DNA from: Maritimibacter alkaliphilus
GTDB taxonomy: Bacteria > Pseudomonadota > Alphaproteobacteria > Rhodobacterales > Rhodobacteraceae
Assembly: GCF_019801605.1 (NCBI RefSeq)
Contig: NZ_JAHVIT010000003.1
Span: forward strand, 186,001 to 250,000
DNA: 64,000 bases
Direction: 5' to 3'
The translations under genes and the position numbers were made by a program. Positions 4,656 to 20,524 of the stretch are shown here, piece by piece (within the stretch, counting starts at the first letter, position 1; each line of letters starts with the position of its first letter). The notes beneath the pieces are model-generated. The model saw only the letters and a list, made by a program, of their open reading frames with translations, was not told the origin of the DNA and made no database searches.

Positions 4656-4721
4656 GTTGACAGACGGCCCTGCCGTTCCGTCAACTGGTTACAGACGCGA
4701 ACAAGGTTCACATATATGAAC
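4656..4721 (+). promoter_or_regulatory. Two inverted repeats before and across the IclR start (candidate operators)
   Basis: Site 1 (4656-4685) is a nested inverted repeat: GTTGAC and GTCAAC arms enclose ACGG/CCGT arms. Site 2 (4706-4721) has arms GTTCA and TGAAC around CATATA, and its right half covers the IclR start codon at 4716. IclR-family regulators bind short palindromes near their own genes. Inferred: autoregulation and control of the downstream operon. The start-codon overlap would let a bound regulator block expression directly. No matching pair is seen upstream of dctP. Confidence 0.45.
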
Positions 4722-5519
4722 AATCAAGTCAAGTCCGCCGCAAGGGTCCTCGACGTGCTGGAGCTGCTCTCCCGCCAGCCGGAGCCGATGCGCCTGAACG
4801 AGCTTGTGGCCCGGCTGGGCTTTCCCAAGTCCTCGGCCTACGGGCTGCTCTCGACCCTCGTGGCGCGTGGCTACGTCAAGAAGGACAGCGCCGACCGCTA
4901 TGCCATCGTGGAGACCTTCCGCCAGGGCTTCGGCTGGGTCGGCGGGCTGGAGGGCTTCCTGACCTCCGTCGCCGCCCCTGTGGTGGAAGAGATGCGCGAC
5001 CTGCTGGACGAGACGGTCTTCGTCTGCGTCCGCACCCCGGAACAGAACGCCCGACTGGTGACCAAGGCCGTCAGCCGCCAGCCGATCCGCTACGACGCCT
5101 CGGACCAATCCTCGCTGCCGGGCTACGGCACGGTGATGGGCCGGGTCCTGCTGGCCTTCCAGCCGGATGAGGTGATCGACGACTACTTCGCCCGGACCGA
5201 GCTGCGCGCCTTCAACGACCGGACCCCCACGGACGAGGCCACGATCCGCGCGGCCCTCGCCCAGATCCGCGCCGACGGCTTCGGCACCATCGTCGACGAA
5301 TACGCCACCGGCGGGGCCGGCATCGCCGCCCCGATCCGCAACGCGGAAAGCAACGTCGTGGCCGTGATCGACGTGGCCACCGTGACCGCCCGCTACGAAC
5401 AGCGCCGGGACGAGATGCTGGCCGCCGTGCTGGAGGGCGCCGCCCGGATCAGCGCGCGGCTCGGCTATCGGCCCGGCCCCGAAGACAACCAGACACTGAC
5501 ACCACAAGGAGACGCGTGA
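4716..5519 (+). CDS. IclR-family transcriptional regulator
   Basis: A 267-residue regulator with an N-terminal winged HTH (about residues 5-65, including LNELVARLGFPKSSAYGLLSTLVARGY) and a C-terminal IclR effector domain (about 80-255, including GTVMGRVLLAF and GGAGIAAPIRN). ATG 4716 is chosen because the protein begins there with the usual KSAARVLDVLELL segment; upstream in-frame codons encode nothing IclR-like. No strong ribosome site precedes it, so the transcript may be nearly leaderless. Its stop overlaps hyuA (TGATG). It heads the 16-kb catabolic operon and is the likely substrate-responsive switch; the effector is unknown. Confidence 0.88.
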   Translation: MNNQVKSAARVLDVLELLSRQPEPMRLNELVARLGFPKSSAYGLLSTLVARGYVKKDSADRYAIVETFRQGFGWVGGLEGFLTSVAAPVVEEMRDLLDETVFVCVRTPEQNARLVTKAVSRQPIRYDASDQSSLPGYGTVMGRVLLAFQPDEVIDDYFARTELRAFNDRTPTDEATIRAALAQIRADGFGTIVDEYATGGAGIAAPIRNAESNVVAVIDVATVTARYEQRRDEMLAAVLEGAARISARLGYRPGPEDNQTLTPQGDA

Positions 5520-7576
5520 TGGGTTATCGCGTGGGCGTGGACATCGGCGGCACCTTTGCCGACTTCTGCGCATTCGATGAAACGGCGGGCAGCATGGGCA
5601 CCGTCAAGGTTCTGACCACCCCCGACAAGCCGGGACAGGAGGTCATCGATGGCCTGAAGGCGCTGGAAGACCGCTTTGGCATCGCACCCGGCGATATCTC
5701 GTATTTCACCCATGGCACTACCGTGGGCATCAACTCGATCATCATGCGCAAGGGCATCCGCCTTGCCATGTTCACCACCGAGAACTTCTGCGACGTGCTG
5801 GAACTGGCGCGCCTCAAGATGCCCGATCCCTACCACCTGCTGTCCTCCCGGCCCGAGCCGCTGGTGACCCGCGACCTCGTCTTCGGCGTGGCGGAACGGA
5901 TGCTGGCCGACGGCACCGTGGACAGCCCGCTGGACGAGGACAGCCTGCGCGCCGCCGTGGCGGCAGCCAAGGCACGCGGGGCCGAAGGTGTGGTGATCTC
6001 CTTCCTGCACAGCTACCGCAACCCGGCCCACGAACAGCAGGCCAAGCGCCTGATCGCCGAAATCGCACCCGAGTTGCATGTCTTCACCTCGCACGAGGTG
6101 CGCCCGATCATCCGGGAATACGAACGCTCCTCCACCGCCGTGATCCACGGCTATGTGCAGCCCCGCGTGTCCCAGTACCTTGGCGCGCTGCAAGAGGCGC
6201 TGTCTGGCATCGGCGTGACGCCCGAGCCGATGATCACCAAGTCGAACGGCGGCATCATGTCGGTCGAGGTCGGCAAGACCGCCTGCGTCGAGATGCTGCT
6301 GTCGGGCACGGCGGCGGGCGTCATGGGCGCGGCCTTCGTCGCGCGCGAGGCCGGCGAGGACAAGGTGCTGAGCCTCGACATCGGCGGCACCTCGGCGGAT
6401 GTGGCGATCATCACCGGCGGTCAGCCCGGCTATGGCATGAACGAGGTCGTGGGCGATTTCCCGATCTTCGTGCCCACCGTCTCGGTCACCTCCATCGGCG
6501 AGGGCGGCGGCTCCATCGCGCGGATCGACGCGGCGGGTATGCTGACCGTGGGGCCGGACAGCGCGGGCTCCACCCCCGGGCCTGCGGCCTATGGCCGGGG
6601 CGGCACGCAGGCGACGATCACCGATGCCTTCGTGACGCTGGGCCTGCTGGACCTTTCCGCGCTTGGCTATGGCATGGTCTCGGTCGACCGCGACAAGGCC
6701 GTCGAGGTGATCCAGCCGCTGGCCGACAGCCTCGGCAGCACGCTGGAGGAAACCGCCGAGGGCATCGTGGGCATCGCCGTCTCGGGGATGTTCCGCGAGG
6801 TGTCCAAGCTGTGTTCGCGCCGGGGCATCGACGTGGGCGAGTTCTCCCTGCTGGCCTTCGGCGGCGGCGGCCCGATGATGGCCTGCTTCCTTGCCCGCGA
6901 CCTCGGCATGAAACGCGTGATCGTGCCCCCCTCCCCCGGCGTCCTTTCGGCGCTCGGCGGGCTGACGGCGGATGTGCGCAACGATTTCACCGAAACCGCC
7001 TACTACGACCTCGCCCCCGCCAATGCCCCGCGCATGGGCGAGACCATCGCCCGGCTGACCGAAAAGGCCCGCCGCTGGATGGTCGAAGAACAGCACTACG
7101 AGGGCAGGCCGGTCTTCCACGCCTCGGGCGAGATGCGCTACCGCGGGCAAAGCTTCGAGATCGAGGTGCCCATCGACCCCGCCACGCTGGCCAAGGGCGA
7201 CATCACCCCGGTGGCCGAGGCCTTCCACGCCGAGCACCGCCGCCTCTATGGCCATGCCGACCCCGAGGCGCCGATCCAGATCATCGCGATCAACCTCGTG
7301 GTGACCGGCCATTCGGCCAAGCCGACCCTGCCGCGCAGCACGCCCCAGCCGAAGACGGTGACGGCGCAGGCCAGCATGTCGGCCTGGCTGGACGGCGCAC
7401 GCCGCGAGGTGCCGCTTTTCAAGCGGAACGACCTGACGCCCGGTGCCACCTTCGTCAGCCCCTGCGTGATCGCGCAGGACGACACCACCACCATCGTGCC
7501 CGCCGGCTTCAGCGGCGAGGTCGATGGCCATGGCAACCTGATCCTCACCCTCGCGGAGACCGCCGATGCGCACTGA
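5519..7576 (+). CDS. hyuA: Hydantoinase/oxoprolinase subunit A (ATP-dependent lactam hydrolase)
   Basis: A 685-residue member of the HyuA / 5-oxoprolinase N-terminal family. ATG 5519 is preferred over GTG 5516 because GGAG ends 7 nt before it. Actin-like phosphate-binding loops are seen at VDIGGTFADF (about 7-16) and LDIGGTSADVAI (about 285-296). GEGGGSIARID and FGGGGPMMA are family signatures. Together with HyuB, such enzymes open 5-membered cyclic amides (5-oxoproline, N-methylhydantoin and similar) using ATP, with the A subunit supplying the phosphorylation site. It overlaps hyuB by 11 bp. The substrate is not deducible; the GGT gene in the same operon makes a 5-oxoproline-like or gamma-lactam substrate plausible. 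Confidence 0.9.
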   Translation: MGYRVGVDIGGTFADFCAFDETAGSMGTVKVLTTPDKPGQEVIDGLKALEDRFGIAPGDISYFTHGTTVGINSIIMRKGIRLAMFTTENFCDVLELARLKMPDPYHLLSSRPEPLVTRDLVFGVAERMLADGTVDSPLDEDSLRAAVAAAKARGAEGVVISFLHSYRNPAHEQQAKRLIAEIAPELHVFTSHEVRPIIREYERSSTAVIHGYVQPRVSQYLGALQEALSGIGVTPEPMITKSNGGIMSVEVGKTACVEMLLSGTAAGVMGAAFVAREAGEDKVLSLDIGGTSADVAIITGGQPGYGMNEVVGDFPIFVPTVSVTSIGEGGGSIARIDAAGMLTVGPDSAGSTPGPAAYGRGGTQATITDAFVTLGLLDLSALGYGMVSVDRDKAVEVIQPLADSLGSTLEETAEGIVGIAVSGMFREVSKLCSRRGIDVGEFSLLAFGGGGPMMACFLARDLGMKRVIVPPSPGVLSALGGLTADVRNDFTETAYYDLAPANAPRMGETIARLTEKARRWMVEEQHYEGRPVFHASGEMRYRGQSFEIEVPIDPATLAKGDITPVAEAFHAEHRRLYGHADPEAPIQIIAINLVVTGHSAKPTLPRSTPQPKTVTAQASMSAWLDGARREVPLFKRNDLTPGATFVSPCVIAQDDTTTIVPAGFSGEVDGHGNLILTLAETADAH

Positions 7577-9578
7577 TCCCGTCACCCTCAAAGTGCTGGA
7601 GAACCACGCGCAGGCCGTGGCCGAAAGCATGGCCTTCACCCTCTTCCGCACCGCGCATTCGACCTTCGTGAAAGAGACCGAGGATTTCACCACCGGCCTC
7701 GTCACGCCCTCGGGCATGACTTTCGCCAGCCCGCGAGACCTTGGCGCCACGTGGTTCATCGGCCTTGATTACAAGGGCGCGCTGGAGATGATCGACGACT
7801 ACGAGGAGGGCGACATCTGCGTGACGAACGACCCCTACTCGGGCTTCGTCTGCACCCATACGCCGGACATGCACATCTGGAAGCCGATCTTCTGGGAGGG
7901 CGAGATCATCGCCTTTGCCGTCGGCCATATCCACAACACCGACATGGGCGGCGCGGTGCCCGCCTCGCTGTCGCGGGCCAATACCGAGGTCCATCAGGAG
8001 GGCATCCGCTTCCGCCCCACCAAGCTGATCAGCCGGGGCGTGATGAACGACCAGCTCATCGAGACGATGATGCTGAACGTCCGCATGCCCGATCAGAACC
8101 GGGGCGACCTGAACGCGCAGATCGCCGCCGTGAACACCGGCGAAGCCAAGATGCACGAGATGATCCGGAAGTTCGGCGTCGAGACCGTAAAGAACGGCAT
8201 CGAGGACCTGCTGGACGTGGGCGAGGCGCGGGCGCGTGCCGTGATCTCGGGCCTGCCCGACGGCGACCACCGCTTTGTCGATTACCTTGACGAGGACGGG
8301 CCGGGCGGCGTGCCGGTGCGGCTGGAACTGACGCTGAAGGTGCGCGGGGATGAGGTCATCATGGACTTCACCGGCTCCGATCCACAGCTGAAATCCGCCC
8401 TCAACATGCCCACCGGAGGCAATCCCCGGCACATCCTGCTGATGGTGGGCTACAACTACTGTCTCTACACGCTCGACCCGTCGATCCCGCTGAACGGCGG
8501 CATCCTCAGGGCGGCGACATGCGTCGTGCCCGAGGGCACGGTGCTCAATCCCCAGTACCCTGCTGCAGTCGGGATGCGCTCGCTCACCTGCGGGCGGCTG
8601 CAGGGGGTCATCATGGGGGCGTTCCACGCCGCCGCCCCGGACCGTCTGCCCGTGGGCGCGGCGGGCGGCGGCGGGATCGTGAACGTCAAGACCTTCGACG
8701 CCGCCAGCGGCAAGCTCTCCATGGCCTCGATCGACCCGGTGACGGGCGGCGCGGGCGGCTCGGCGCTTGGCGATGGCACCGACGGGTCGGGGGCCAACTC
8801 GGCCTTCCTCAAGAACACCCCGGTCGAGATCAACGAGGTCGAGGTGCCGATCAAGTTCCGCCGCTATGGCCTCGTGCCCGACAGCGGCGGCCCCGGCACC
8901 GCGCGGGGCGGCATGGCGACAGAGCTGGAGGTGGAGGTCTTCACCCCGGACACCGTGATCACCGCGCGCAACCGCGACCGCACGATCTTTGCCGCCTGGG
9001 GCGGCGCGGGCGGGCAGCCCGGTGCGCCCTCGCTCTTCACCCGGGTGACGCCCAAGGGCGAGGAGATCAACCTCGGCAATACCGACGTCGTGACCATGGG
9101 GCCGGGCGACGTGTTCAACCTGACCTCGGGCGGCGGCGCGGGCTATGGCGATCCCTTCGCGCGCCCGGTGGATCTGGTGGTGCGCGACGTGCTGCGCGGC
9201 TCGGTCACGCCCGAGAAGGCCAAGGCCAGCTATGGCGTCGTCGTGGACCGCGAGGGCGTGCTGGATGCCGCCGCCACCAAGGCCCTGCGCGATGCCCATG
9301 TGGCCCCCGCCCCCACGACCTTCAGCTACAACGAAAGCCGCCGCGCCTACGAGGCGATCTGGACCGATGCCAACTACGCCGCGCTGACGCAGGCGCTGAC
9401 CATGATGCCGGTGCACTGGCGCCACTTCGTCAAACGCGAGGTCTTCGACCGGATCGAGGCCCTGCCCGAAACCGCCCGCAAGGGCGACGGAAGCGAGGTC
9501 TGGGAGGCCGTGGAAGCCGTGAAGACCCGCGTGCCGGGCCTCGCCCGGTCGATGCAGGTGCAGGAGGCGGCGGAATGA
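7566..9578 (+). CDS. hyuB: Hydantoinase/oxoprolinase subunit B
   Basis: A 670-residue HyuB-family protein, partner of HyuA. It opens with DPVTLKVLENHAQAVAESMAFTLFRTAHS and carries the motifs NDPYSGFVCTHTPDMHIWKP (about 87-106) and VGHIHNTDMGG (about 118-128), whose His/Asp residues are probable catalytic or metal ligands. A glycine-rich C-terminal segment (LTSGGGAGYGDP) is typical of the family. The gene overlaps hyuA by 11 bp and the next SDR by 4 bp, so the subunits should be made in step. At 670 residues it is longer than many HyuB proteins (~500-600), because the region after the GYGDP motif extends about 140 residues. Confidence 0.9.
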   Translation: MRTDPVTLKVLENHAQAVAESMAFTLFRTAHSTFVKETEDFTTGLVTPSGMTFASPRDLGATWFIGLDYKGALEMIDDYEEGDICVTNDPYSGFVCTHTPDMHIWKPIFWEGEIIAFAVGHIHNTDMGGAVPASLSRANTEVHQEGIRFRPTKLISRGVMNDQLIETMMLNVRMPDQNRGDLNAQIAAVNTGEAKMHEMIRKFGVETVKNGIEDLLDVGEARARAVISGLPDGDHRFVDYLDEDGPGGVPVRLELTLKVRGDEVIMDFTGSDPQLKSALNMPTGGNPRHILLMVGYNYCLYTLDPSIPLNGGILRAATCVVPEGTVLNPQYPAAVGMRSLTCGRLQGVIMGAFHAAAPDRLPVGAAGGGGIVNVKTFDAASGKLSMASIDPVTGGAGGSALGDGTDGSGANSAFLKNTPVEINEVEVPIKFRRYGLVPDSGGPGTARGGMATELEVEVFTPDTVITARNRDRTIFAAWGGAGGQPGAPSLFTRVTPKGEEINLGNTDVVTMGPGDVFNLTSGGGAGYGDPFARPVDLVVRDVLRGSVTPEKAKASYGVVVDREGVLDAAATKALRDAHVAPAPTTFSYNESRRAYEAIWTDANYAALTQALTMMPVHWRHFVKREVFDRIEALPETARKGDGSEVWEAVEAVKTRVPGLARSMQVQEAAE

Positions 9579-10324
9579 TCAGCTTCGACTTCTCCGGCCA
9601 GACCGTCCTCGTGACCGGGGCCGCCCGCGGCATCGGGGCGGGCATCGCGGCCGAATTCGCCGCCGCAGGCGCCCGCGTCGTGGCCGCCGATATCCTCGCC
9701 GACGAGCTGGCCGCCTTTGCCGCCGCCCATCCGGGTGTCGAGACGGAGGTGATCGACCTTGGCGATTTCGAGGCGGTCAAGGCGCGCTTTGGCGATCTGG
9801 CCCCCGATGTGGTGGTGAATTCCGCCGGCGGCGTGCGCGGCAACACCAAGAAACCTCTGGAAGAGGTCACGGACGAAGAATGGATGTCGATCTATGACGG
9901 CAATGTCATGTCGGCCTTCAACCTGATCCGCGCCGTGATCCCGGCCATGAAGGCGCGCGGCTCGGGCCGGATCGTGACGATCTCCTCCGGCGCGGGGCTG
10001 AAACCCAGCCTGACCGGCATCCAGTCTTATTGCTCGGCCAAGCACGGGCTGATCGGCCTGACCCGCCAGATGGCGCTGGAGCTGGGGCCCTTCGGGATCA
10101 CCGTGAATTCCGTCGCGCCGGGCTTCCTGCGCACCTCGCCCGACTATGAAAAGCAATGGGCGGGCTACGGCGAGGAGGGCCAGAAACGCATGGTCGAGAA
10201 CATTGCCATGCGCCGTCTGGGTGAGCCCGCCGACATCGCCGCTGCCTGCGCCTTCCTCGCCTCGGACCGGGCGGGGTTCATCACCGGGCAGGTGCTGCCC
10301 GTATCTGGCCACCCCTTCCCCTAA
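9575..10324 (+). CDS. Short-chain dehydrogenase/reductase (SDR)
   Basis: A 249-residue classical SDR. It has the cofactor loop TGAARGIGAG (14-23), NSAG (82-85), catalytic Ser at 137-138 (ISSGAG) and YCSAK with Tyr152/Lys156. AADILADE after the second strand, with an acidic residue, favours NAD(H) over NADP(H). It is ATGA-coupled to hyuB. Presumed to oxidise or reduce a hydroxy/keto intermediate of the same pathway; the substrate is unknown. A second SDR lies further down the operon at 16928. Confidence 0.88.
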   Translation: MISFDFSGQTVLVTGAARGIGAGIAAEFAAAGARVVAADILADELAAFAAAHPGVETEVIDLGDFEAVKARFGDLAPDVVVNSAGGVRGNTKKPLEEVTDEEWMSIYDGNVMSAFNLIRAVIPAMKARGSGRIVTISSGAGLKPSLTGIQSYCSAKHGLIGLTRQMALELGPFGITVNSVAPGFLRTSPDYEKQWAGYGEEGQKRMVENIAMRRLGEPADIAAACAFLASDRAGFITGQVLPVSGHPFP

Positions 10325-10336
10325 GGACCTGAGATC

Positions 10337-11227
10337 ATGAGCATATCTGAAAACCCCTGGGAATGGCCCGAAGAGGTCTGGCGCGGCAAGGTCGATCGCG
10401 TGCGCGCCGGTGAAAGCCTCAAGCCCGCCACCTGGCCCGGTGGCGCCAAATGCGCCGTCGCCATGTCCTTCGACGTGGACCACGAGACGAACGAGCTGCG
10501 CGACGGTGGCAAGTCCATCGGCGCCATGAGCCGCGGCCAGTACGGCAACCGGCAGGGCATTCCGCGCGTCATGGAGATCATCCGCCGCCACGACATCAAG
10601 GCCAGCTTCTATGTCCCCGCCGTGGTGGCGCAGCTCTACCCCGAGGAGACCCGCATGTTCGTGGCCGAGGGCCACGAGGTCGGCATCCACGGCTGGATCC
10701 ACGAACGCAACTCGGTCCTGCCCGAGCCGGTGGAACGCGATCTTCAGATGCGCTCGGCCGATATGCTGGAAAAGATCAGCGGCGCGCGCCCGGTGGGCAT
10801 CCGCACGCCGTCGTGGGATTTCTCGCAGGCCACGCTGGAAATCACCCGCGACATGGGGCTGAGCTATGACAGCTCGCTCATGGCGGATGTGGATTGCTAC
10901 CGCCTCCTGCTCGACGGCGCGGACACCGGCGTGGTGGAACTGCCCGTCGAATGGATCCGCGACGACGCCGTCTATTTCAACATGAACCGCTTCTCGGCGC
11001 TACGCCCCTACACGCCGCCCGAGGCCGTCTTCGACATCTTCTCGAAGGAGTTCGAAGCCGCCTACGCCGAGGGCGGGCTGTTCCAGCTGACCATGCATCC
11101 GCACATCACCGGCTATCGGTCGCGGGTCTGGATCTTCGAAGAGCTGATCAAGCTGGCAAAGGCAAAGGGCGACGTCTGGTTCGCCACCCATGCCGAGATC
11201 GTGGACTGGGTGAAGGCCAACGGCTGA
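10337..11227 (+). CDS. NodB-fold 'polysaccharide deacetylase' of the PuuE / cyclic-imide hydrolase type
   Basis: A 296-residue protein with no signal peptide, so cytoplasmic and unlikely to act on cell-wall polysaccharide. Metal-site motifs are SFDVDHE (about 44-50) and HGWIHE (118-123), with RTPSWDFS and a late MHPHITGYRSR. Length and motifs fit the subgroup containing PuuE allantoinase, HpPgdA and bacterial cyclic-imide hydrolases (~293 residues), which open cyclic amide or imide rings without ATP. In this operon it would be a second ring-opening amidohydrolase beside HyuAB. The exact substrate is inferred only from context. Confidence 0.82.
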   Translation: MSISENPWEWPEEVWRGKVDRVRAGESLKPATWPGGAKCAVAMSFDVDHETNELRDGGKSIGAMSRGQYGNRQGIPRVMEIIRRHDIKASFYVPAVVAQLYPEETRMFVAEGHEVGIHGWIHERNSVLPEPVERDLQMRSADMLEKISGARPVGIRTPSWDFSQATLEITRDMGLSYDSSLMADVDCYRLLLDGADTGVVELPVEWIRDDAVYFNMNRFSALRPYTPPEAVFDIFSKEFEAAYAEGGLFQLTMHPHITGYRSRVWIFEELIKLAKAKGDVWFATHAEIVDWVKANG

Positions 11228-11343
11228 CCCCCGCCCCGTCATCCCCACGCGGCCCCGCACGGGCCCTTGCCGTCCCGGTCCCTCCCCGGTGCGGCCAAGA
11301 CAAAGACAACAAATCAACGTCAACCAACAGAGAGATAAACGCC

Positions 11344-12897
11344 ATGAAACATCACGTTCTGGCGCTGTGCTCCGCACTTGCGCTGATGACCCCGACCCTG
11401 GGTGTGGCCCAGGATCGCTATGTTCATGCCAACAACTCCGCCTATGACACGCTCGATCCGCACACCGTGCGCGACGTGGCCCGCGTGGCGTCGCGGCTCA
11501 ACTTCTACGACGGGCTCTACCGCTGGGTGGACAATCCCCCGCAGCTGATCCCGTGGCTGGCCACCGATCACTCGGTCTCCGAGGACGGCCTGACCTGGAC
11601 CTTCAACCTGCGCGACGACGTGACCTTCCACGACGGCACCAAGATGACCGCCGAGGATGTCGTCTATTCCTTCGAGCGGATGCTGGAGCTGAAGCGGGGC
11701 GCGGGCTCGCTCTTCCTGCCGATGATCGACCCGGGCCAGACCGTGGCCGTGGACGACACCACCGTCGCCTTCACCCTCAAGGAACCCTCCGCGATCTTCG
11801 CGGCGCTGGTGCCCGATATCCTCGTGGTGAACTCCACGCTGGTGAAGGAAAACGAGGTCGATGGCGACTGGGGCCAGGCCTACATGATCGACCACGTCGC
11901 GGGCTCGGGCTCGTACATGCTGCAACGCTATGACCCGGCGCGCGGCTTCATCGGCGAACGCTTTGCCGATCACTTTGCAGGCTGGGGCGAGAAGTACTTC
12001 GACGAGATCGAATTCCGCACCGTGCTGGAAACCAACACCCGGATCCAGGGCCTGATGCGCGGCGACTACCAGGGCCTCGACGGCTACCTCGCCCCCGACC
12101 AGGTGGAGCGCCTGCGCGCCGACGAGGATGTGCAGATCATGGAAGAAGAATCCATGCGCGTCTTCCACATCGCGATGCACAACGGCCGCGCGCCCCTGGA
12201 CGACAAGAACTTCCGCATGGCGATGGTGCATGCCTTCGACTACGACGGCTACATCAACGAGATCATGCAGGGCACCGTCGCCCGCAACCCCACGATCATG
12301 CCGGGCAACCTCTGGGGCGCACCGGACGTGCCGGGCTACGACTACGACCTCGAAAAGGCGCAGGAATACCTCGACGCCTACAAGGCCGAACATGGCGACG
12401 ACATCCGCACGATCAAGATCGGCACGCTGGCCGGCTTCTCGGAAACCGAACAGGCCGCGGCGCTGATGCAGAACGGGCTCTCGCAGCTCGGCATCGAGGT
12501 GGAGATCGAGAGCTCGCCCTGGCCGGTGATCTCCTCGGCGATGCAGAACCCCGACACGATGCCCGACATGGTGCCCTACTGGAAGTCGACCTACTACGTC
12601 GATCCGAACAACTGGGTGGGTGAGCTCTATGCCTCGCGCTATGCGCCGACGCGGAACGTCTCGGACTACCACAACGACGCGGTGGACGAGAAGCTGGAGC
12701 AGGCCCTGATCATCACCGATCAGGACGCGCGCGCGCAGCTCTACGCCGACGCCACCACGCAGATCTACGAGGATGCCGCCGGTATCTGGATCTACAACAC
12801 CAAGTGGTTCGGCCCCTATGCCTCCAACGTGAAGAACGTCCGCTTCTGCCCGGTTGGCAACGGCCAGGACATGCGGTGGGCCTACCTCGAGGAGTGA
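11344..12897 (+). CDS. Dipeptide/oligopeptide-type ABC transporter substrate-binding protein (family 5)
   Basis: A 517-residue periplasmic receptor with a signal peptide (about 1-22, ending GVAQ). The family-5 (DppA/OppA) pattern is seen: DTLDPHTVRDVARVAS, then LIPWLATDHSVSEDGLTWTFNLRDDVTFHDG and TAEDVVYSFERML. It captures the compound imported by the permease/ATPase genes that follow. The relatives include receptors for peptides, nickel, opines and glutathione, so the fold alone does not fix the ligand; the gamma-glutamyltransferase in this operon points toward a gamma-glutamyl or peptide-like ligand. It is separated from the permease by a hairpin at 12922. Confidence 0.92.
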   Translation: MKHHVLALCSALALMTPTLGVAQDRYVHANNSAYDTLDPHTVRDVARVASRLNFYDGLYRWVDNPPQLIPWLATDHSVSEDGLTWTFNLRDDVTFHDGTKMTAEDVVYSFERMLELKRGAGSLFLPMIDPGQTVAVDDTTVAFTLKEPSAIFAALVPDILVVNSTLVKENEVDGDWGQAYMIDHVAGSGSYMLQRYDPARGFIGERFADHFAGWGEKYFDEIEFRTVLETNTRIQGLMRGDYQGLDGYLAPDQVERLRADEDVQIMEEESMRVFHIAMHNGRAPLDDKNFRMAMVHAFDYDGYINEIMQGTVARNPTIMPGNLWGAPDVPGYDYDLEKAQEYLDAYKAEHGDDIRTIKIGTLAGFSETEQAAALMQNGLSQLGIEVEIESSPWPVISSAMQNPDTMPDMVPYWKSTYYVDPNNWVGELYASRYAPTRNVSDYHNDAVDEKLEQALIITDQDARAQLYADATTQIYEDAAGIWIYNTKWFGPYASNVKNVRFCPVGNGQDMRWAYLEE

Positions 12898-12921
12898 TCC
12901 CCTCTGACGCCCCCCTCTGAC

Positions 12922-12939: not shown

Positions 12940-13028
12940 TGATCGGGGCGCCGCGGCCTCTCTCCCCGTCACGGTGCCTCGCCCTCTTCACCCAGCAAGA
13001 CCTTCCCAGCCCGATCGGAGCTTCCTCC

Positions 13029-14033
13029 ATGCGCAGACTGGAAATCATCCTGTCCCGCCTCGTCTGGTTCATTCCTACCCTCTTCGGCCTCGTCTTCGTG
13101 GTCTTCTTCATCTCCAACGTGATCCCGACCGACCCGGCGCGGATCATTGCGGGCGAGAACGCGACCGAGGTACAGGTGCAGGCGCTGCGCGCCGAGATGG
13201 GCCTCGACCAGCCGCTTCACGTCCAGTTCGGCCGCTATGTCGCCGACCTCGCCACAGGGGACCTCGGCAAGAGCCTCTATACACAGAGGGCGATTTCCGA
13301 AGACCTGCTGCACCGGCTGCCCGCCACGCTGGAGTTGACCATGGCCGCCATGGTCCTTGCCATCGGGCTTGGCGTGCCGCTCGGCGTCATCTCGGCGGTG
13401 AAGCGCAATTCCATGATCGACCAGACCCTGCGGGTGCTCTCGGTCTCGGGCCTCGCCGTGGCCAGCTTCTGGCTGGCGATGGAGCTTCAGATGTATTTCT
13501 CGACCAAGCTGGGCTGGACGCCGCTCAACGGCCGGATCGCCGGCTGGGGACCGGAGGAGATCACCGGCTTCTACCTGCTCGACTCGCTGCTCACCGGGGA
13601 CTGGGCCTCGTTCTGGGACACGCTGCACCACATGCTGCTGCCCGCGATCACGCTGGCCCTTCCGGCCGCCGCCACGCTGGTGCGCTTCACCCGCGCGGGC
13701 GTGCTGGAGGTGATCAACTCCAACTTCGTGCTCTACGAACGCGCCATGGGCTTTCCCACCACGCTGATCACGTGGAAATACGTGCTGCGCAACGCCCTGA
13801 TTTCCACCGTGACCCAGATCGGCCTGATCTTCGGCTCGCTCTTTGCCGGCGCCGTGGTGGTCGAGGCGGTCTTTGACTGGCCGGGCCTTGGCACCTACGC
13901 GGTGCAGTCGATCCTGCAATCGGACACCAAGGCGATCCTCGGCTTCTCGATCATCGTCGGCGTCGTCTTCATCGGCGTGAACCTCCTCGTCGACATCATC
14001 CACACCTTCATCGACCCGAGGACCCTGAAATGA
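13029..14033 (+). CDS. ABC transporter permease, DppB type
   Basis: A 334-residue inner-membrane permease with six predicted helices. The N-terminus MRRLEIILSRLVWFIPTLFG and the long periplasmic loop after TM1 (DPARIIAGENATEVQVQALR) are typical of DppB/OppB proteins. The ATPase-coupling EAA-like loop is near YERAMGFPTTLITWKYVLRN. It overlaps the DppC-type gene by 4 bp. It pairs with the next gene to form the membrane channel for the operon's importer. Confidence 0.93.
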   Translation: MRRLEIILSRLVWFIPTLFGLVFVVFFISNVIPTDPARIIAGENATEVQVQALRAEMGLDQPLHVQFGRYVADLATGDLGKSLYTQRAISEDLLHRLPATLELTMAAMVLAIGLGVPLGVISAVKRNSMIDQTLRVLSVSGLAVASFWLAMELQMYFSTKLGWTPLNGRIAGWGPEEITGFYLLDSLLTGDWASFWDTLHHMLLPAITLALPAAATLVRFTRAGVLEVINSNFVLYERAMGFPTTLITWKYVLRNALISTVTQIGLIFGSLFAGAVVVEAVFDWPGLGTYAVQSILQSDTKAILGFSIIVGVVFIGVNLLVDIIHTFIDPRTLK

Positions 14034-14872
14034 CCGCTCTGAAACGGCTTCTGGCGGACCGGGCCGCGACCATCGGGGCCGCCCTCATCCTCGGCCTGAT
14101 CCTCGTCGCGATCTTCGCGCCCGTCCTGGCCCCCTACCCCGAGGACGTCACCGCCTTCCACCTGACGGAACGGCTGCAACCGCCCTCGGCCGACCACCTC
14201 TTCGGCACCGACAGGATGGGCTCCGACGTCTTCTCGCGCATCCTCTTCGGGGCGCGGATCACCATCACCATCGCGGTCATCGCCGTGGGCGTCTCGGTCG
14301 GGATCGGCGTGCCCATCGGGCTGATCGCGGGCTACTACGGCGGCTTCCCGGGCGGGTTCCTGATGCGGACCTCGGACATCTTCCTCGCCGTGCCCCAGAT
14401 CGTGCTGGCCATCGCCATCGCGCAGACCCTTGGGCCCTCGGTCGAGAACGTCATCCTCGCACTGTCGCTGACCTACTGGCCGTTCTGGGCCCGCCTCGTC
14501 TACGCCGAGACGAAGTCGCTCAAGGCGCAGACCTTCGTCGAGGCGGCGCTCGCGCTTGGCGCTTCGGACTGGCGGGTGATGGTGCTGCACATCCTGCCCA
14601 ACACCGCCTCCGCGATCATCGTGCGGACCTCGATCGGCATGGGGGCCACGATCCTCACCGCCGCCGCCCTCGGCTTCCTCGGCCTTGGCGCGCCGCCGCC
14701 GACACCCGAATGGGGCCGGACCATTTCCGAGGCGCGCGAGTTCCTGCCGGAAGCCTGGTGGTACGCCGCCGCCCCCGGCCTTGCGATCTTCCTTGTCGTC
14801 ATGGGCTTCAACCTGCTGGGCGATGGCCTGCGCGACATCCTCGACCCGAAACTGAGAAAGGGAAGCCGATGA
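14030..14872 (+). CDS. ABC transporter permease, DppC type
   Basis: A 280-residue permease. The family features are LQPPSADHLFGTDRMGSDVFSR before TM2, and the coupling loop VEAALALGASDWRVMVLHILPN. The end LGDGLRDILDPKLR is characteristic of DppC/OppC. Overlaps of 4 bp on both sides tie it to the DppB and DppD genes. It forms the second half of the transmembrane channel. Confidence 0.94.
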   Translation: MTALKRLLADRAATIGAALILGLILVAIFAPVLAPYPEDVTAFHLTERLQPPSADHLFGTDRMGSDVFSRILFGARITITIAVIAVGVSVGIGVPIGLIAGYYGGFPGGFLMRTSDIFLAVPQIVLAIAIAQTLGPSVENVILALSLTYWPFWARLVYAETKSLKAQTFVEAALALGASDWRVMVLHILPNTASAIIVRTSIGMGATILTAAALGFLGLGAPPPTPEWGRTISEAREFLPEAWWYAAAPGLAIFLVVMGFNLLGDGLRDILDPKLRKGSR

Positions 14873-15924
14873 CCGACGCGCTCCTGACCGTCGAGGGCCT
14901 GTCCCTCGGGTTCCGCGGGGATGGGGGCTTTGCCCATATCCTCGACGGCGCCAACATGACCATGAAGCGGGGCGAGATCATGGGCCTCGTGGGGGAAAGC
15001 GGCTGTGGCAAGACCACGCTGGCCAGTGCCATCCTCGGCGTGCTGCCGCGCCACGCGCTGGAGATCCGTGGCGGGCGCATCCGCTTCGACGGCATCGACA
15101 TGCTGGATGCCGCGCAGGGCGCGCAGCAGCAGGCCGTCCGGGGCCGCCGCGTGACCTTCATCCCGCAGGATCCCTTCACCTCGCTGAACCCGGTCTTCAC
15201 CATCGGCCAGCAGATCGAGGAATTGATGAAGTGGAAATCACCGCGCCGCCCCGTGGGCCCGTCGCGTGCGCCGACCCTGCTGACGCCCTATCCCCGCGCC
15301 CGGCGCAAGGCGGACCGCGAGAAGATCATGGAGATGCTGAACCTCGTCCAGCTGCCCCGGCCTGAACAGCTGCTGAAGAAGTACCCGCACGAGGTCTCGG
15401 GCGGACAGCGGCAACGGCTGATGATCGCCATGGCCCTCCTGCCCGAGCCCGACCTGATCATCGCTGACGAACCGACCACCGCGCTCGACGTGACGATTCA
15501 GGCGCAGATCCTTGGCCTGCTGCGCAATCTCGCCAACGACCGGGGGGTGGCGGTGATGCTGACGACCCATGACCTCGGCTCGGCCTACGAGATCTGCGAC
15601 CGGATCACCGTGATGTACGCCGGTCAGGACGTCGAGGCTGCCCCGGTGGCCGAGTTCTTCAACCGCCCGACGCATCCCTACACCGCCAAGCTGCTGGCCT
15701 CGCTGCCCGAGGGCGGCGGCGGCATGACCGGCATCCCCGGCGAGTTGCCCAGCTTCTACGCGCCGCCGCCGGGCTGCCGGTTCCAGACCCGCTGCGACCG
15801 CGCGACCGAGGCCTGCCGCACCCGTCCCGCGCCCGACTTGGCCGGGCCGGCCCATGTGGTGCGCTGCGCCCATCCGCTGTTCCAGACCACCCCCGCCACC
15901 CCGCTGAAGGAGGTGCAGGCATGA
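14869..15924 (+). CDS. ABC transporter ATPase, DppD/OppD type
   Basis: A 351-residue ATPase starting at ATG 14869, inside the previous gene's stop (ATGA). Walker A is GESGCGKTT (42-50), the signature VSGGQRQRL, and Walker B LIIADEPTTALD. The C-terminal oligopeptide-ABC extension with Cys residues (PPPGCRFQTRCDRATEAC...RCAHP) matches the 4Fe-4S-like Cys cluster region of DppD/DppF proteins. An extra insertion of about 25 residues (RPVGPSRAPTLLTPYPRARR) lies between the Q-loop and signature. It works with the next gene as a heterodimer. Confidence 0.93.
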   Translation: MTDALLTVEGLSLGFRGDGGFAHILDGANMTMKRGEIMGLVGESGCGKTTLASAILGVLPRHALEIRGGRIRFDGIDMLDAAQGAQQQAVRGRRVTFIPQDPFTSLNPVFTIGQQIEELMKWKSPRRPVGPSRAPTLLTPYPRARRKADREKIMEMLNLVQLPRPEQLLKKYPHEVSGGQRQRLMIAMALLPEPDLIIADEPTTALDVTIQAQILGLLRNLANDRGVAVMLTTHDLGSAYEICDRITVMYAGQDVEAAPVAEFFNRPTHPYTAKLLASLPEGGGGMTGIPGELPSFYAPPPGCRFQTRCDRATEACRTRPAPDLAGPAHVVRCAHPLFQTTPATPLKEVQA

Positions 15925-16931
15925 CAGACGCCCCGATCCTGACCGTGTCGGACCTGACGGTCCGCTTCCCGATCCGCGGCCCCTTCGCCCGCAAGCTGGG
16001 CGAGATCAAGGCCCTCGACGGGGTCGGCTTCGACCTCGCGCAGGGGGAAATCCTCGGCCTCGTGGGGGAATCCGGCTGCGGCAAGTCCACGCTCGGCAAG
16101 ACGCTGATGGGCATTCAGGCGCCCACTTCCGGGTCGATCACCTTCGAGGGCAAGGAGATCGCGGGCCGTACCCCGCGCGAGGCGCGCGCCCTGCGCCGCC
16201 GCCTGCAATATGCCTATCAGGACCCCGGCGCCTCGCTCGATCCGCGCTGGAAGATCGGCAAGTCTCTGGAAGAGCCGCTGATCATCCACACCGACCTGCC
16301 CCGCAAGGAGCGGCTGGCCAAGGTGCGCGAGATCCTGACCTCGGTCGGCCTGCCGGCCGGTCACGCGGACCTTTTCCCGCATGAGATCTCGGGCGGGCAG
16401 CAGCGCCGGGTGGGCCTTGCCCGCATCCTGATGCTGAACCCCGAGGTGGTGATCCTCGACGAGCCGACGGCGGGCCTCGACGTGTCGGTGCAGGCCACGG
16501 TGCTGCGGCTCTTCCGCGACCTGCGCGAAACCTTCGACCTGACCTACATCTTCATCTCGCACGACCTGTCGGTGGTGCGGCTCATGTGTCACCGGGTGGC
16601 GGTGATGTACCTTGGCCGCATCGTCGAAGTGGGCCCGGTGGAGGAGCTGATGGACAGCCCCAAGCACCCCTATACCCAGTCGCTGTTGGCCGCGATCCCC
16701 AAGGTCAACGGCCCCCGCGTGACCGAGAACTTCTGGCTTGAGGGCGAACCGGCGGATGCCTCGAACCTGCCGCCAGGCTGCCGGTTCCAGGGCCGCTGCC
16801 CCCATGTGAAACCGATCTGCCGGCAGGAAGACCCCGCCGACCGCACCGTGGGCGCCCAGACCGTCGCCTGCCATTTCGCGGGCGAGGTCTTCCCGCCCGT
16901 CCCCACTCCGAAGGAAAGTACCCCCGCATGA
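15921..16931 (+). CDS. ABC transporter ATPase, DppF/OppF type
   Basis: A 336-residue ATPase. It has Walker A GESGCGKSTLGK, signature ISGGQQRRVGLAR and Walker B VVILDEPTAGLDVSVQ. The C-terminal Cys-containing tail (GCRFQGRCPHVKPIC) is present. Its ATG lies in the preceding stop, and AAGGAGG ends 7 nt upstream. It is the last component of the importer and is 4-bp coupled to the SDR that follows, which ties transport and catabolism into one transcript. Confidence 0.93.
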   Translation: MTDAPILTVSDLTVRFPIRGPFARKLGEIKALDGVGFDLAQGEILGLVGESGCGKSTLGKTLMGIQAPTSGSITFEGKEIAGRTPREARALRRRLQYAYQDPGASLDPRWKIGKSLEEPLIIHTDLPRKERLAKVREILTSVGLPAGHADLFPHEISGGQQRRVGLARILMLNPEVVILDEPTAGLDVSVQATVLRLFRDLRETFDLTYIFISHDLSVVRLMCHRVAVMYLGRIVEVGPVEELMDSPKHPYTQSLLAAIPKVNGPRVTENFWLEGEPADASNLPPGCRFQGRCPHVKPICRQEDPADRTVGAQTVACHFAGEVFPPVPTPKESTPA

Positions 16932-17671
16932 GCAAGACAGCCATCGTCACCGGCGGCGGTCGCGGCATCGGCCGCGGCTGCGCCCATGAACTGGCCCGGC
17001 AGGGCTGTGACATCGTTCTGGCGGACCTGATCCCCGAGGATCTCGCCAACACCAAGGCCGAGATCGAGGCCATGGGCCGGACCTGCCGCACCTATGTCGC
17101 CGACGTGGCCGACTTTGCCCGCGCGCAAGAAATCGTGGCCGAGGTCGAGGCCGAAACCGGCCCCGTCGCCGTGCTGGTCAACAACGCGGGCAAGTCGAAC
17201 ACCGACGGCATCTGCGAGATCACCGAGGAGAGCTTTGACCGCACCATCGCGATCAACCTCAAGGGCTGCTTCAACTGGACCCGGGCCGTGGCACCGGGGA
17301 TGATGCAGGCGCAGGCCGGGCGCATCGTCATGATGTCGTCGATCAACGCCTATACTGGCGGGGTGACGTCGGCTGTCTCGAAATTCGCCTACACCACTGC
17401 CAAAGCTGGACTTTTGGGCATGACCAAGGCCTTGGCCAAGGAAATGGCCCCCCATGTTCTGGTCAATGCCGTCTGCCCCGGTATCATCGAAACCGAACGG
17501 TCCAACGACCTGATCCGCGCCCGCAAGGACGAGTTGCAATCCGGGATCTCCCTCCAGCGGACCGGGACGCCCGCCGACGTGGCACAGGTCGTGGCCTTTC
17601 TTGCCCTGAGCGAACCCTGTTTCGTGACCGGCGAAGACATCAAGATCGACGGTTTCCAATGGGTGATCTGA
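16928..17671 (+). CDS. Short-chain dehydrogenase/reductase (SDR), second copy in operon
   Basis: A 247-residue classical SDR with TGGGRGIGRG (8-17), NNAG (85-88), Ser137/138 (MMSSIN) and YTTAK with Tyr155/Lys159. LADLIPED after strand 2 suggests NAD(H). It resembles the SDR at 9575 in length and motifs but differs in most side-chain-lining residues, so it probably handles a different step. Coupled to the DppF-type gene by ATGA. The codon choice near 17390-17420 (ACTGCCAAAGCTGGACTTTTG) is a little AT-richer than its neighbours. Confidence 0.88.
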   Translation: MSKTAIVTGGGRGIGRGCAHELARQGCDIVLADLIPEDLANTKAEIEAMGRTCRTYVADVADFARAQEIVAEVEAETGPVAVLVNNAGKSNTDGICEITEESFDRTIAINLKGCFNWTRAVAPGMMQAQAGRIVMMSSINAYTGGVTSAVSKFAYTTAKAGLLGMTKALAKEMAPHVLVNAVCPGIIETERSNDLIRARKDELQSGISLQRTGTPADVAQVVAFLALSEPCFVTGEDIKIDGFQWVI

Positions 17672-17705
17672 CCCGCCGCCGGTGAGCGCACCTGAAGGAG
17701 CCGCA

Positions 17706-18947
17706 ATGACAGACGTCCGCACCGCCGCCGCACCCTCGTGGGTGCCCATCGTGGTGACCGTCACCCTCGTGCAGGCGGTGCTGGCCCTGATGATCCGGGT
17801 GCTGCCCCTGCTGGGGATGCCCCTGACACAGGCCAGCGGCGTCCCGCCCGAGGCAGTGGGACAGCTGTCCTCGGCGGCGGCCTTCGGCTCGATGTGCTTC
17901 TTCCTCTGGGGGCCGACGGTGCTGGTGCGCTTCTCCTCGCTGCAACAGCTGCAACTGGGGTGCGTCACCTCGGCGGCGGCGCTGCTCTTCTGCCTCTTCA
18001 ACCGGTGGGAGGCGATGCTGCTGGCCAGTTTCGTCATCGGGCTGGGCTATGGCACCGCCACGCCGGCAGGCGCCGACCTGCTGATGAAGGTGGTGCCCAA
18101 GGCCCGGCGCGCGACGATCTTCTCGGTCAAGCAAGCGGGCGTGCCGCTTGGCGGTCTGGCCGCCGGGCTGCTGCTGCCCTTCGTGGCGCTGCATTTCGGT
18201 GGCGTACCGGCGGCGATGATCACGGCCTGCGTGCTCGCGCTCGGCTCTGCCGCGGCACTCGCGCTCTGGAAGGGCGCGATGGACGACAGCCCGCCGCCGA
18301 CCCGCGCCCTGCCCTTCCGCGACCTCGCGCTTGCGCCGGTGCGGCTGATCGCCCTGCTGATGCGCGACCGTCAGTTGCGGCTGCTGACCGCGGCGGGCTT
18401 CTGCCTCGGCGTGGCGCAGGGCATCCTGATGGCCTTCTATGCCGTCTTCCTGTCCGACCACGCGGGCTGGTCGCTGGCCGCGGCCGGGGCGGGTTTCGCC
18501 CTGTTGCAGGGCGCGGGCGTCGCCGGGCGGATCACCATGGGCTGGCTCTCGGACCGGATCGGCGATCCGGTGCGCGCCCTCTCGGGGCTGTGCTTCGTCT
18601 CGGGCATCACCATGGCGCTGCTGGCCACCATCGGCCCGAACAGCCCGGTGGCCTGGATCGTCCTGCTCTCGGTTCTGGCCGGGATCACCGTGATCTCGTG
18701 GAACGGGGTCTTTCTGACCGGGCTGGCTGAAACCGCCCCCGAGGGCCGCGTGGGAGAGATCACCGCCGCCGGGACCTTCGTCCTCTTCAGCGGCTATGTC
18801 CTCTGCCCCGTGCTGATCCAGACCGTGTTCGCCGCCACCGAAGGCTATGCCACCGGGCTGGTGATTTCGGGGCTCGCCCCCGTTCTCGCCGGCACCGCCC
18901 TGATGATCGGCGCCCGCAGGCGCCGCGATGACAAGACGAAAGGCTGA
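17706..18947 (+). CDS. MFS transporter
   Basis: A 413-residue, 12-helix major-facilitator protein. ATG 17706 is used because AAGGAG ends 5 nt upstream. The loop between helices 8 and 9 carries GWLSDRIGDP, the MFS motif-A pattern, and the first half ends in AMDDSPPPTR, the usual central cytoplasmic loop. It could be a third uptake route or an exporter of a breakdown product (the operon already has an ABC importer, and a TRAP system is next door). Substrate unknown. It is followed 2 nt later by the GGT gene. Confidence 0.85.
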   Translation: MTDVRTAAAPSWVPIVVTVTLVQAVLALMIRVLPLLGMPLTQASGVPPEAVGQLSSAAAFGSMCFFLWGPTVLVRFSSLQQLQLGCVTSAAALLFCLFNRWEAMLLASFVIGLGYGTATPAGADLLMKVVPKARRATIFSVKQAGVPLGGLAAGLLLPFVALHFGGVPAAMITACVLALGSAAALALWKGAMDDSPPPTRALPFRDLALAPVRLIALLMRDRQLRLLTAAGFCLGVAQGILMAFYAVFLSDHAGWSLAAAGAGFALLQGAGVAGRITMGWLSDRIGDPVRALSGLCFVSGITMALLATIGPNSPVAWIVLLSVLAGITVISWNGVFLTGLAETAPEGRVGEITAAGTFVLFSGYVLCPVLIQTVFAATEGYATGLVISGLAPVLAGTALMIGARRRRDDKTKG

Positions 18948-18949
18948 CC

Positions 18950-20524
18950 ATGAGCAACTTCTCCAAGACCCAGAAAATCCACAAGGACGTCATCTGGACC
19001 GAGGGCGGCGTGGTCGCCTCGCAGCACCGCAAGGCGGCCGAGGTGGGCGCCGCCGTGCTGGCCGCAGGCGGCGATGCCATCGACGCGGCGGTCGCCACCT
19101 CCTTTGCCGTGGGCGTGGTGGAGCCGTGGATGTCCGGGCCCATGGGCGGCGGCATGATGACCCTCTGGCGCGCCGACGAGGAACGCGCCGAGACGATCGA
19201 GTTCGGGATGCGTTCGCCCGCCGGGCTGAAGACCGAAGACTACCCGCTGGAGCCCGGCGCCAAGGCGGGCGATCTCTTCCCCTGGACCCGCGTGAAGGGC
19301 GACCGCAACGTCTATGGCGCCACCGCCGTCGCGGTGCCCGGCACCGTCGCGGGGATGGAGCTGGCCCATGGCAAATACGGGCGCAAGGCCTGGGCCGAGC
19401 TGCTGGCGCCCGCCGTGGCCCTGGCCGGTGAGGGGATGCTGATCGACTGGTACGCCTCGCTGATGATCGCCTCCGCCACCCGGCAGCTGGCGCAGGACAA
19501 GGACGCCGCCGATCTCTTCCTCGTGGACGGGCAGTGGCCCAACATCGCGGGCTGGACCGCCCTGTCGGATGCGCGGCTGAACCAGACCGCCCATGCCGCC
19601 ACGCTGCAACGGCTGGCCGAACATGGCGCGCGGGACTTCTACGAGGGCGAGGCCGCCCGGATGCTGGTCGAGGACGTGCAGGCCAAGGGCGGGTCGCTCG
19701 CGCTGGAGGACCTTGCCGCCTACCGTGCCGTGGCCTCCGAGCCGCGCACGATCCGTTACCGCGACGCGGTGATCCATGCGCCCTCGGGTCTCTCGGCCGG
19801 GGCCGAACTGGTCAAGGCGCTGGAGGCGATGGAGGCCGGCTTCACCCCCGGTGACACCCCCTCGCCCGAGAGCTATGCCACCATGGCAGGCGCGCTCGGG
19901 GCCGCGTATCGCGACCGGCTGGAACATGGCGGCGACACTGGCGAGAGCCCGCAGGCCCCCGCCTGCACCACCACCTTCAGCGTGGTGGACCGGCACGGCA
20001 ACATGGTGAACGTGACCCAGACCCTGCTGTCGATGTTCGGCAGCCACGTGGTCTCCCCCCAGACCGGGATGCTGCTGAACAACGGGATCATGTGGTTCGA
20101 CCCCGAACCGGGCAAGCCGAACTCGCTGGCGCCGGGCAAGCGCTGCCTGATGAACGTCTGCCCCACGGTGGGTCAGGCGGGCGACCGGATGTTCGCCATC
20201 GGCGCCTCGGGCGGGCGGAAGATCCTGCCGGCGGTGACGAATCTGACCAGCTTCATCGCGGATTTCGGCATGGATCTGGACGAGGCGATCCACACGCCCC
20301 GCATCGACGCCTCGGGCGCCAGCGGCACCGTGGTGGACGAGGACCTGCCCGGCGCGGTGGGTGAGGCGCTGGCCGCGCTCGGCCCGGTGAAGAAGGCCAA
20401 GCGCACGGTGCACCCCTATGCCTTCGCGGTGCCTGCGGGCGTGATGCGCAAGGCGGGCCGGAACTGCGGCGCGACCGAGATCATGACCCCCTGGGGCGAT
20501 GCGATCCGCGAAGAGGAGGTGTGA
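18950..20524 (+). CDS. Gamma-glutamyltransferase family protein without signal peptide
   Basis: A 524-residue Ntn-hydrolase of the gamma-glutamyltranspeptidase family. The autoprocessing/nucleophile region is CTTTFSVVD, with Thr340 aligning with the catalytic Thr of the TTHYSVVD motif in characterised GGTs. Downstream GSHVVSPQTGMLLNNGI and GASGGRKILPA match the small subunit. The N-terminus (MSNFSKTQKIHKDVIW) shows no signal peptide, unlike the periplasmic E. coli enzyme, so a cytoplasmic enzyme acting on imported substrate is inferred. Family members cleave gamma-glutamyl bonds or related amides (glutathione hydrolases, cephalosporin acylases). It is the last gene of the operon. Confidence 0.87.
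   Translation: MSNFSKTQKIHKDVIWTEGGVVASQHRKAAEVGAAVLAAGGDAIDAAVATSFAVGVVEPWMSGPMGGGMMTLWRADEERAETIEFGMRSPAGLKTEDYPLEPGAKAGDLFPWTRVKGDRNVYGATAVAVPGTVAGMELAHGKYGRKAWAELLAPAVALAGEGMLIDWYASLMIASATRQLAQDKDAADLFLVDGQWPNIAGWTALSDARLNQTAHAATLQRLAEHGARDFYEGEAARMLVEDVQAKGGSLALEDLAAYRAVASEPRTIRYRDAVIHAPSGLSAGAELVKALEAMEAGFTPGDTPSPESYATMAGALGAAYRDRLEHGGDTGESPQAPACTTTFSVVDRHGNMVNVTQTLLSMFGSHVVSPQTGMLLNNGIMWFDPEPGKPNSLAPGKRCLMNVCPTVGQAGDRMFAIGASGGRKILPAVTNLTSFIADFGMDLDEAIHTPRIDASGASGTVVDEDLPGAVGEALAALGPVKKAKRTVHPYAFAVPAGVMRKAGRNCGATEIMTPWGDAIREEEV

Follow-up and report, generated by a model that had tools for sequence, protein, structure and literature searches.

A candidate cyclic-amide catabolic operon in Maritimibacter alkaliphilus combines two ring-opening amide hydrolases with a gamma-glutamyltransferase-fold protein lacking most of the gamma-glutamyl pocket

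We analyzed a 64,000-nucleotide stretch of the Maritimibacter alkaliphilus genome (contig NZ_JAHVIT010000003.1 of assembly GCF_019801605.1, positions 186,001 to 250,000), hereafter the window. The host belongs to a mostly marine family of bacteria. Our subject is an operon of 13 plus-strand genes that runs from the gene for an IclR-family regulator, starting at position 4716, to a gamma-glutamyltransferase (GGT)-family gene ending at 20524. The gene order is IclR–HyuA–HyuB–SDR–NodB–ABC(5)–SDR–MFS–GGT, where SDR is a short-chain dehydrogenase, ABC(5) the five genes of an ATP-binding cassette importer and MFS a major facilitator superfamily transporter. The list of open reading frames (ORFs) and family searches confirmed this layout, which a first-pass annotation of the window had described with the same families.

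The regulator comes first (4716..5519; Pfam IclR_C and HTH_IclR), and its orthologue is also the first gene at loci L035, L037, L135 and L152 (L and G numbers are our labels for loci and genomes). It is followed by the two subunits of an ATP-dependent cyclic-amide hydrolase, a HyuA/CapA-type subunit (5519..7576; Pfam Hydantoinase_A; alternative GTG start at 5516) and a HyuB/CapB-type subunit (7566..9578; Pfam Hydantoinase_B over residues 4-530 of 670). Next are a classical short-chain dehydrogenase, SDR1 (9575..10324; Pfam adh_short_C2; motifs TGAARGIG and YCSAK), and a NodB-fold amidohydrolase of the cyclic-imide-hydrolase/HP0310-like kind (10337..11227; Pfam Polysacc_deac_1). The complete dipeptide-type importer claimed in the first-pass annotation is supported by a family 5 solute-binding protein with a hydrophobic leader (11344..12897; Pfam SBP_bac_5; hydropathy 1.95 at residue 5), permeases B (13029..14033) and C (14030..14872) and ATPases D (14869..15924) and F (15921..16931), the last four named by position and annotated relatives. 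The operon is completed by a second short-chain dehydrogenase, SDR2 (16928..17671; Pfam adh_short; TGGGRGIG and YTTAK), an MFS transporter whose start codon is uncertain (17682..18947; Pfam MFS_1; 75% identity in L035 and 59% in L037) and the GGT-family protein (18950..20524; Pfam G_glu_transpept). Searches of solved structures with SDR1, SDR2 and the binding protein returned broad family matches only, the best for the binding protein being DppA.

At the 12 junctions between IclR and GGT, neighboring genes overlap by 4 or 11 bp at seven and are 2-12 bp apart at three, including 2 bp between MFS and GGT. The two widest gaps are 116 bp between NodB and the binding protein and 131 bp between the binding protein and the first permease. 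The overlap of IclR and HyuA is 1 bp if HyuA starts at the ATG at 5519. The earlier statement that nearly all genes are coupled by overlaps of 1-11 bp was therefore too strong. The sole plus-strand terminator-like site lies within the SDR2 coding sequence, and Rfam and tRNA searches of the window gave no matches. Because the next likely gene downstream of GGT (ORF 21031-21969) is on the minus strand, the operon probably ends at GGT. Genes for a tripartite ATP-independent periplasmic (TRAP) transporter do lie just upstream, as had been noticed, at about 1600-4374 and with a 341-bp gap before IclR. Reading 9.9, 9.8, 7.4 and 4.4 kb of upstream sequence at the other four operons gave no TRAP match, and we rejected the transporter as part of the unit on that ground.

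The first-pass annotation had suggested searching other genomes for the same genes in the same order. The order recurs in four relatives. All 13 genes are present in G098 (L035; 72-93% identity) and G068 (L037; 59-91% identity). A plasmid of Paroceanicella profunda (L135) has the same order and all genes but GGT within the 26.9 kb read, and Palleronia aestuarii (L152) keeps the order with both MFS and GGT absent from the 20.9 kb examined. GGT is thus present in three of the five loci of this operon type, window included. In these and all other fetched loci, genes were called as longest ORFs and compared with a panel made up of proteins of the window and annotated proteins of plasmids; distances are approximate, and names are given only to genes matching the panel. 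Close relatives of HyuB (E<=1e-150) occur in 10 of the 292 genomes of the order, and 3 of the 10 lie in this operon.

The metal site of the NodB-fold protein is intact. In an alignment of 28 rows (the window and 27 of 39 listed relatives), Asp46, Asp48, His118, His122, Arg156 and His254 are invariant. Its predicted model matches 3rxz best (TM-score 0.84), then 3qbu, which is HP0310 (0.80), and then PuuE 3cl6. Of eight NodB1.2 proteins, 3RXZ and 3QBU are the two that retain all five active residues, and metal-independent PuuE allantoinases are described as missing both MT1 aspartates and having the second MT2 histidine replaced by tryptophan (PMC10967932). The window protein keeps D46, D48, H118 and H122 in 28/28 rows and scores 66.2 bits against the PuuE family TIGR03212, far below the cut-off of 424.6. 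We therefore rejected a PuuE allantoinase identity, and the earlier description of this protein as PuuE-like does not stand. For HxnM, a fungal cyclic imidase defined by genetics, the nearest structural homologue is described as HP0310 (PMC9304392). Judged from its model, with an HP0310-like NodB fold and a metal site, the window protein is a candidate cyclic imide hydrolase. Elsewhere in the window's genome (L150, G000:C1:1396500-1402500), two tandem NodB-fold genes, with 31-32% identity to the window's, adjoin a second dipeptide-type binding-protein gene and an ATPase gene.

HyuAB has the motifs of ATP-dependent lactamases and hydantoinases (DxGGTxxD, DxGGT, GxxPGP and Asp-His-Asp-His). HyuA, numbered from the GTG start, carries DIGGTFAD at 9, DIGGTSAD at 288 and GSTPGP at 351, and its best solved structure is the N-methylhydantoinase 7hk5 (E 2e-126). 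HyuB carries the metal motif pieces ETED at 37, THTPD at 97 and HNTDMGG at 123, which are motif matches and not a structural result. Against the NCBIfam caprolactamase equivalogs, HyuA and HyuB score 454.5 and 260.6 bits, below the cut-offs of 1000. About 140 residues of HyuB extend past its Pfam domain, and several relatives at about 54% identity can be aligned with it over nearly the full length. With ATP and metal motifs in HyuAB and an intact metal site in the NodB-fold protein, these data support two ring-opening amide hydrolases of unrelated folds, as first proposed.

The last protein of the operon has a GGT fold. Its predicted model (predicted local distance difference test score, pLDDT, 90.8) best matches the GGT precursors of B. 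licheniformis and E. coli and a cephalosporin acylase. It was described as leaderless, and a hydrophobic N-terminal stretch is indeed missing: the best 15-residue hydropathy is 1.29, compared with 2.4 for a leader-bearing GGT of the same genome (L144), where GGT-family matches occur in eight places, the window's included. The idea of one uncharacterised catabolic operon with intracellular enzymes is likewise supported. Against the GGT equivalog of NCBIfam, TIGR00066, the window protein scores 276.6 bits, below the cut-off of 357.85, whereas L144 passes with 416.1 bits.

The first-pass annotation proposed that the cell imports a gamma-glutamyl conjugate whole and that the cytoplasmic GGT then splits off the gamma-glutamyl group. 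A dipeptide-type importer and a GGT fold with Thr340, Thr358 and a Gly-Gly oxyanion pair are in keeping with this proposal. In E. coli GGT, the gamma-glutamate carboxyl is held by Arg114, Ser462 and Ser463, the amino group by Asn411, Gln430 and Asp433, and the carbonyl by Gly483-Gly484 (PMC6769717). We compared these positions in an alignment of 26 rows (the window and 25 of 41 listed GGT relatives). The nucleophile Thr340, Thr358 and the oxyanion residues G421 and G422 are kept in all 26. The Asn411 column is Leu and the Ser463 column Asn in every row; the Gln430 column is Gly in 24 rows and Ala in 2, the Asp433 column Trp in 24 and Tyr in 2, and the Ser462 column Met in 14, Ala in 10 and Ser in 2. 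At the Arg114 column there are G, N, Q or S and Arg in none of the 26 rows, but in 21 rows Arg88 follows at a distance of two residues, so an arginine that binds the carboxylate may have been retained and this position taken alone is ambiguous. The control L144 keeps the Arg, Asp433, Ser462 and Ser463 and has Glu at the Asn411 and Gln430 columns, which shows that those two positions are not strict.

Going by the alignment, five of the six E. coli gamma-glutamyl-binding residues are replaced in the window protein and, nearly throughout, in its subfamily: four of them in 26/26 rows and Ser462 in 24/26. Together with a score below the cut-off that L144 passes, this pocket loss argues strongly, if not conclusively, against a gamma-glutamyl substrate. 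We rejected gamma-glutamyl chemistry as the main reading on these residue counts and regard import and cleavage of a gamma-glutamyl conjugate as highly improbable. The protein more likely completes the breakdown of an opened ring.

Opened rings could also arise in a ureide or hydantoin route akin to the uric-acid/oxamate branch, with a hydantoin-type ring cut by the ring-openers, a 2-oxo amide formed by the SDR and an HpxW-like role for the GGT-like enzyme. HpxW is a GGT-fold oxamate amidohydrolase (5hft) that converts oxamate to oxalate and ammonium (PMC5270733, citing Hicks and Ealick 2016), and there are hydantoinases among the relatives of HyuAB (PMC8453981). RraA and 2-hydroxyacid dehydrogenase genes beside a GGT relative in other loci would also fit. 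However, 5hft matches the window GGT at 51 bits and its paralogue L149, in the same genome, at 163 bits; we rejected HpxW orthology on these scores. The NodB-fold protein, moreover, keeps its metal ligands, unlike PuuE allantoinases, and we consider a ureide route unlikely. At L123, L124, L125 and L126, a GGT relative clusters with TRAP genes, an RraA-type gene and a 2-hydroxyacid dehydrogenase gene; the RraA label is by Pfam and was checked in L124, and the dehydrogenase was checked in L128, where it is GhrA-like but below the cut-off.

The neighborhoods of NodB and GGT genes bear on what the two proteins might do together. We surveyed the best 80 of at least 568 NodB relatives, with 6 kb on both sides available for 53/80 loci; L173 and L186 overlap on one contig. 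An SDR gene lies within 300 bp of NodB on the same strand in 19/80 loci and within 6 kb in 37/80, and a ketopantoate-reductase-type gene within 6 kb in 19/80. HyuA is found in 5/80, and HyuAB lies about 6 kb or less from NodB in two annotated plasmids. The RraA, 2-hydroxyacid dehydrogenase and ketopantoate-reductase-type partners suggest small hydroxy or oxo carboxylates. NodB and GGT are coupled in two further settings. In an ABC-embedded type, the order binding protein, permease, permease, SDR, NodB, GGT, ATPase, ATPase holds in 10/10 loci; nine are from genomes of the window's family and the tenth is from G306, which belongs to a different family. On three betaproteobacterial contigs (L153, L157 and L159), a NodB gene (71-73% identity to the window's) adjoins a GGT gene (59-60%), and the pair adjoins a tricarboxylate-receptor-like gene, identified as TctC by Pfam in L157 and by a weak panel match in L153 and L159. 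The GGT-NodB pairing that was first noticed in the window is thus meaningful, though GGT is present in three of five operon loci.

An asparaginase-2/isoaspartyl-peptidase gene occurs in 17/80 NodB loci, with GGT in 0/17 and a creatininase-family gene in 17/17. These two labels reflect similarity to annotated plasmid proteins, the L136 references being Asparaginase_2 and Creatininase by Pfam. On plasmids of Sulfitobacter, Alloyangia and Sagittula (L136, L140 and L142), genes for an SDR, NodB and an isoaspartyl peptidase/asparaginase are consecutive, and these loci also have creatininase-family and 2-dehydropantoate-2-reductase genes and a divergent ABC importer.

Such partners could also be read as salvage of damaged or modified peptides. 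In that case aspartimide, isoaspartyl-type or cyclic dipeptides would enter the cell, their imide or diketopiperazine ring would be opened, and an amidase or peptidase would complete the breakdown. Dipeptide-type importers recur with NodB or GGT, and asparaginase-2/isoaspartyl peptidase, carboxypeptidase M32 and M20 peptidase genes are partners in relatives. However, the SDRs and the ketopantoate-reductase-type and RraA partners would have no obvious place in peptide salvage, and the betaproteobacterial pair at L157 adjoins a TctC receptor, not a peptide importer. We judge the probability of this explanation to be low. A GGT gene without NodB is accompanied by a dipeptide-type ABC importer, IclR and an M20 peptidase gene in 14/14 loci of that type (L031, L032, L033 and 11 more), where the GGT is pocket-poor and has 57-63% identity to the window's.

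We built trees for both families. The GGT tree has 48 of 53 rows (L095, L128, L147, L149 and L164 omitted), and the NodB tree has 50 of 125 rows, from 47 hand-picked loci and the window. The ABC-embedded GGTs form one supported clade and the betaproteobacterial ones another; in a third place, window-type copies nest with L036, L034 and L039, which have no NodB/Hyu match in the stretches read. In the NodB tree, the window-type and betaproteobacterial rows share a supported nine-row clade and the ABC-embedded rows are far off. The GGT-linked rows require three changes, all three forced by starred branches, and therefore the NodB-GGT coupling was lost or gained more than once. These phylogenies are silent on loss versus gain, but there was more than one event. 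One genome, G168, has a GGT 79% identical to the window's at C235:41126-42697 (L036), without a NodB/Hyu match in the stretch read, and additionally a separate ABC-embedded SDR-NodB-GGT unit on C99 (L115).

The nesting of window-type GGTs with those three copies would suit an operon with two functions on one transcript, in which IclR to SDR2 form the pathway and MFS and GGT were appended later for a separate purpose. In its favor, GGT was not seen in Paroceanicella, and neither MFS nor GGT in Palleronia, in the stretches read. The coupling of NodB to GGT in two other genetic settings and the 2-bp spacing of MFS and GGT in the window point the other way, and we find this explanation quite unlikely.

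Our favored reading, to which we give a probability of roughly 0.45, is that all 13 genes make up a single catabolic unit whose substrate is a small cyclic amide, with a cyclic imide or lactam as the likeliest kind. From the genes and their conserved order, the intact catalytic residues, the pocket loss and the recurrent NodB-GGT and NodB-SDR neighborhoods, we infer this substrate class and the following reactions, in this order. The dipeptide-type importer, possibly with the MFS carrier, would bring the cyclic amide into the cytoplasm. An SDR would oxidize a hydroxyl or carbinolamide carbon, making or using an oxidized ring carbon in the way that HxnW acts ahead of HxnM and HxnN. The metal-dependent NodB-fold enzyme would break an imide C-N bond to open the ring, while HyuAB may use ATP to open a lactam- or hydantoin-type ring, either an upstream form or a second ring. 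Finally, the GGT-fold enzyme, presumably self-cleaving and acting through Thr340, would hydrolyze the open-chain half-amide to ammonia or an amine and a carboxylate. The simplest common theme would be NodB ring-opening followed by an Ntn (N-terminal nucleophile)-type hydrolase, GGT-fold or asparaginase-2, that cuts the open amide.

Several observations weigh against this reading. HP0310 was inactive on the compounds its authors tried (PMC3084791), and because of this the resemblance of the NodB-fold protein to it is a lead, not proof. GGT is found in just 3 of the best 80 NodB loci, and its absence from the stretches read in two of the five window-type operons indicates that it is not obligatory. 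In a sample of the class, NodB lies beside GGT in 1/57 GGT-positive genomes, the window's own excluded. In a sample of the order, the two are clustered in 12/49 GGT-positive genomes, the window's included; nine of these clusters are adjacent pairs and three are the window-type operon. Of the 17 loci with an asparaginase-2 gene, 9 have it no more than 6 kb from NodB, and 5 have it on the same strand at a distance of 300 bp or less. The loci with GGT, an ABC importer and an M20 peptidase fit a peptide-like substrate as well.

A wider version of the proposal, which we regard as doubtful, is a general bacterial module for hydroxyl-bearing cyclic imides, composed of an SDR, a metal-dependent NodB-fold imidase and an interchangeable Ntn half-amidase. 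The half-amidase would be drawn from two families, GGT-fold and asparaginase-2/isoaspartyl type, both of which are Ntn hydrolases. Transporters (ABC, tripartite tricarboxylate type and MFS) would be swapped among Alphaproteobacteria and Betaproteobacteria, and a dehydrogenase-NodB-MFS part would also exist in Actinomycetota. In prokaryotes, such a module would correspond to the HxnW-HxnM-HxnN steps of fungi, and the labels "gamma-glutamyltransferase" and "polysaccharide deacetylase" would be wrong for many proteins.

Sources of cyclic imides and lactams include damaged peptides, pigments, alkaloids, drugs and polymers. If the favored reading of a cyclic-amide operon is correct, a defined bacterial route would supply enzymes to degrade these compounds and would give several co-occurring, so far unassigned families a function that can be tested. 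A subfamily annotated as GGT would not be GGT, and many NodB-fold "polysaccharide deacetylases" would be small-molecule ring-openers. The betaproteobacterial NodB-GGT pair is compact enough for direct assay.

Searches of the open-access literature with co-occurring gene names and imidase/half-amidase terms yielded no account of an operon like this one; subscription journals are mostly outside this literature, and the result is weak evidence of absence. A close likeness is the nicotinate route of A. nidulans, where HxnW, HxnM and HxnN are an SDR, an HP0310-like cyclic imidase and a half-amide hydrolase. HxnN is of the fatty-acid-amide-hydrolase type, whereas its proposed counterpart in the window is an Ntn hydrolase, and the available part of the fungal description names no HyuAB or ABC importer (PMC9304392). 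Unlike the nicotinate route, the 13-gene operon has no pyridine hydroxylase, and HxnM is likened to the NodB-fold protein by description. HyuAB shares its ATP and metal motifs with caprolactamase CapAB (PMC8453981), one of the ATP-dependent lactamases and hydantoinases, but its equivalog scores fall short of the caprolactamase cut-offs and its B subunit is longer. PuuE allantoinase shares the NodB fold and opens the ring of a small cyclic compound; it lacks both MT1 Asp residues and the second MT2 His that the window protein has. GGT itself (EC 2.3.2.2) shares the fold, nucleophilic Thr and oxyanion glycines of the window GGT, which differs in its mostly replaced pocket, its missing leader and its score below the equivalog cut-off. 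HpxW and LmbA, the latter cleaving a C-C bond (PMC5519988), set a precedent for proteins of the GGT fold whose chemistry does not involve gamma-glutamyl groups; their matches to the window GGT reach only 51 bits for HpxW and 38 bits for the LmbA2991 structures. All the enzyme families of the operon are known, and what is new is their combination and the re-purposed GGT family.

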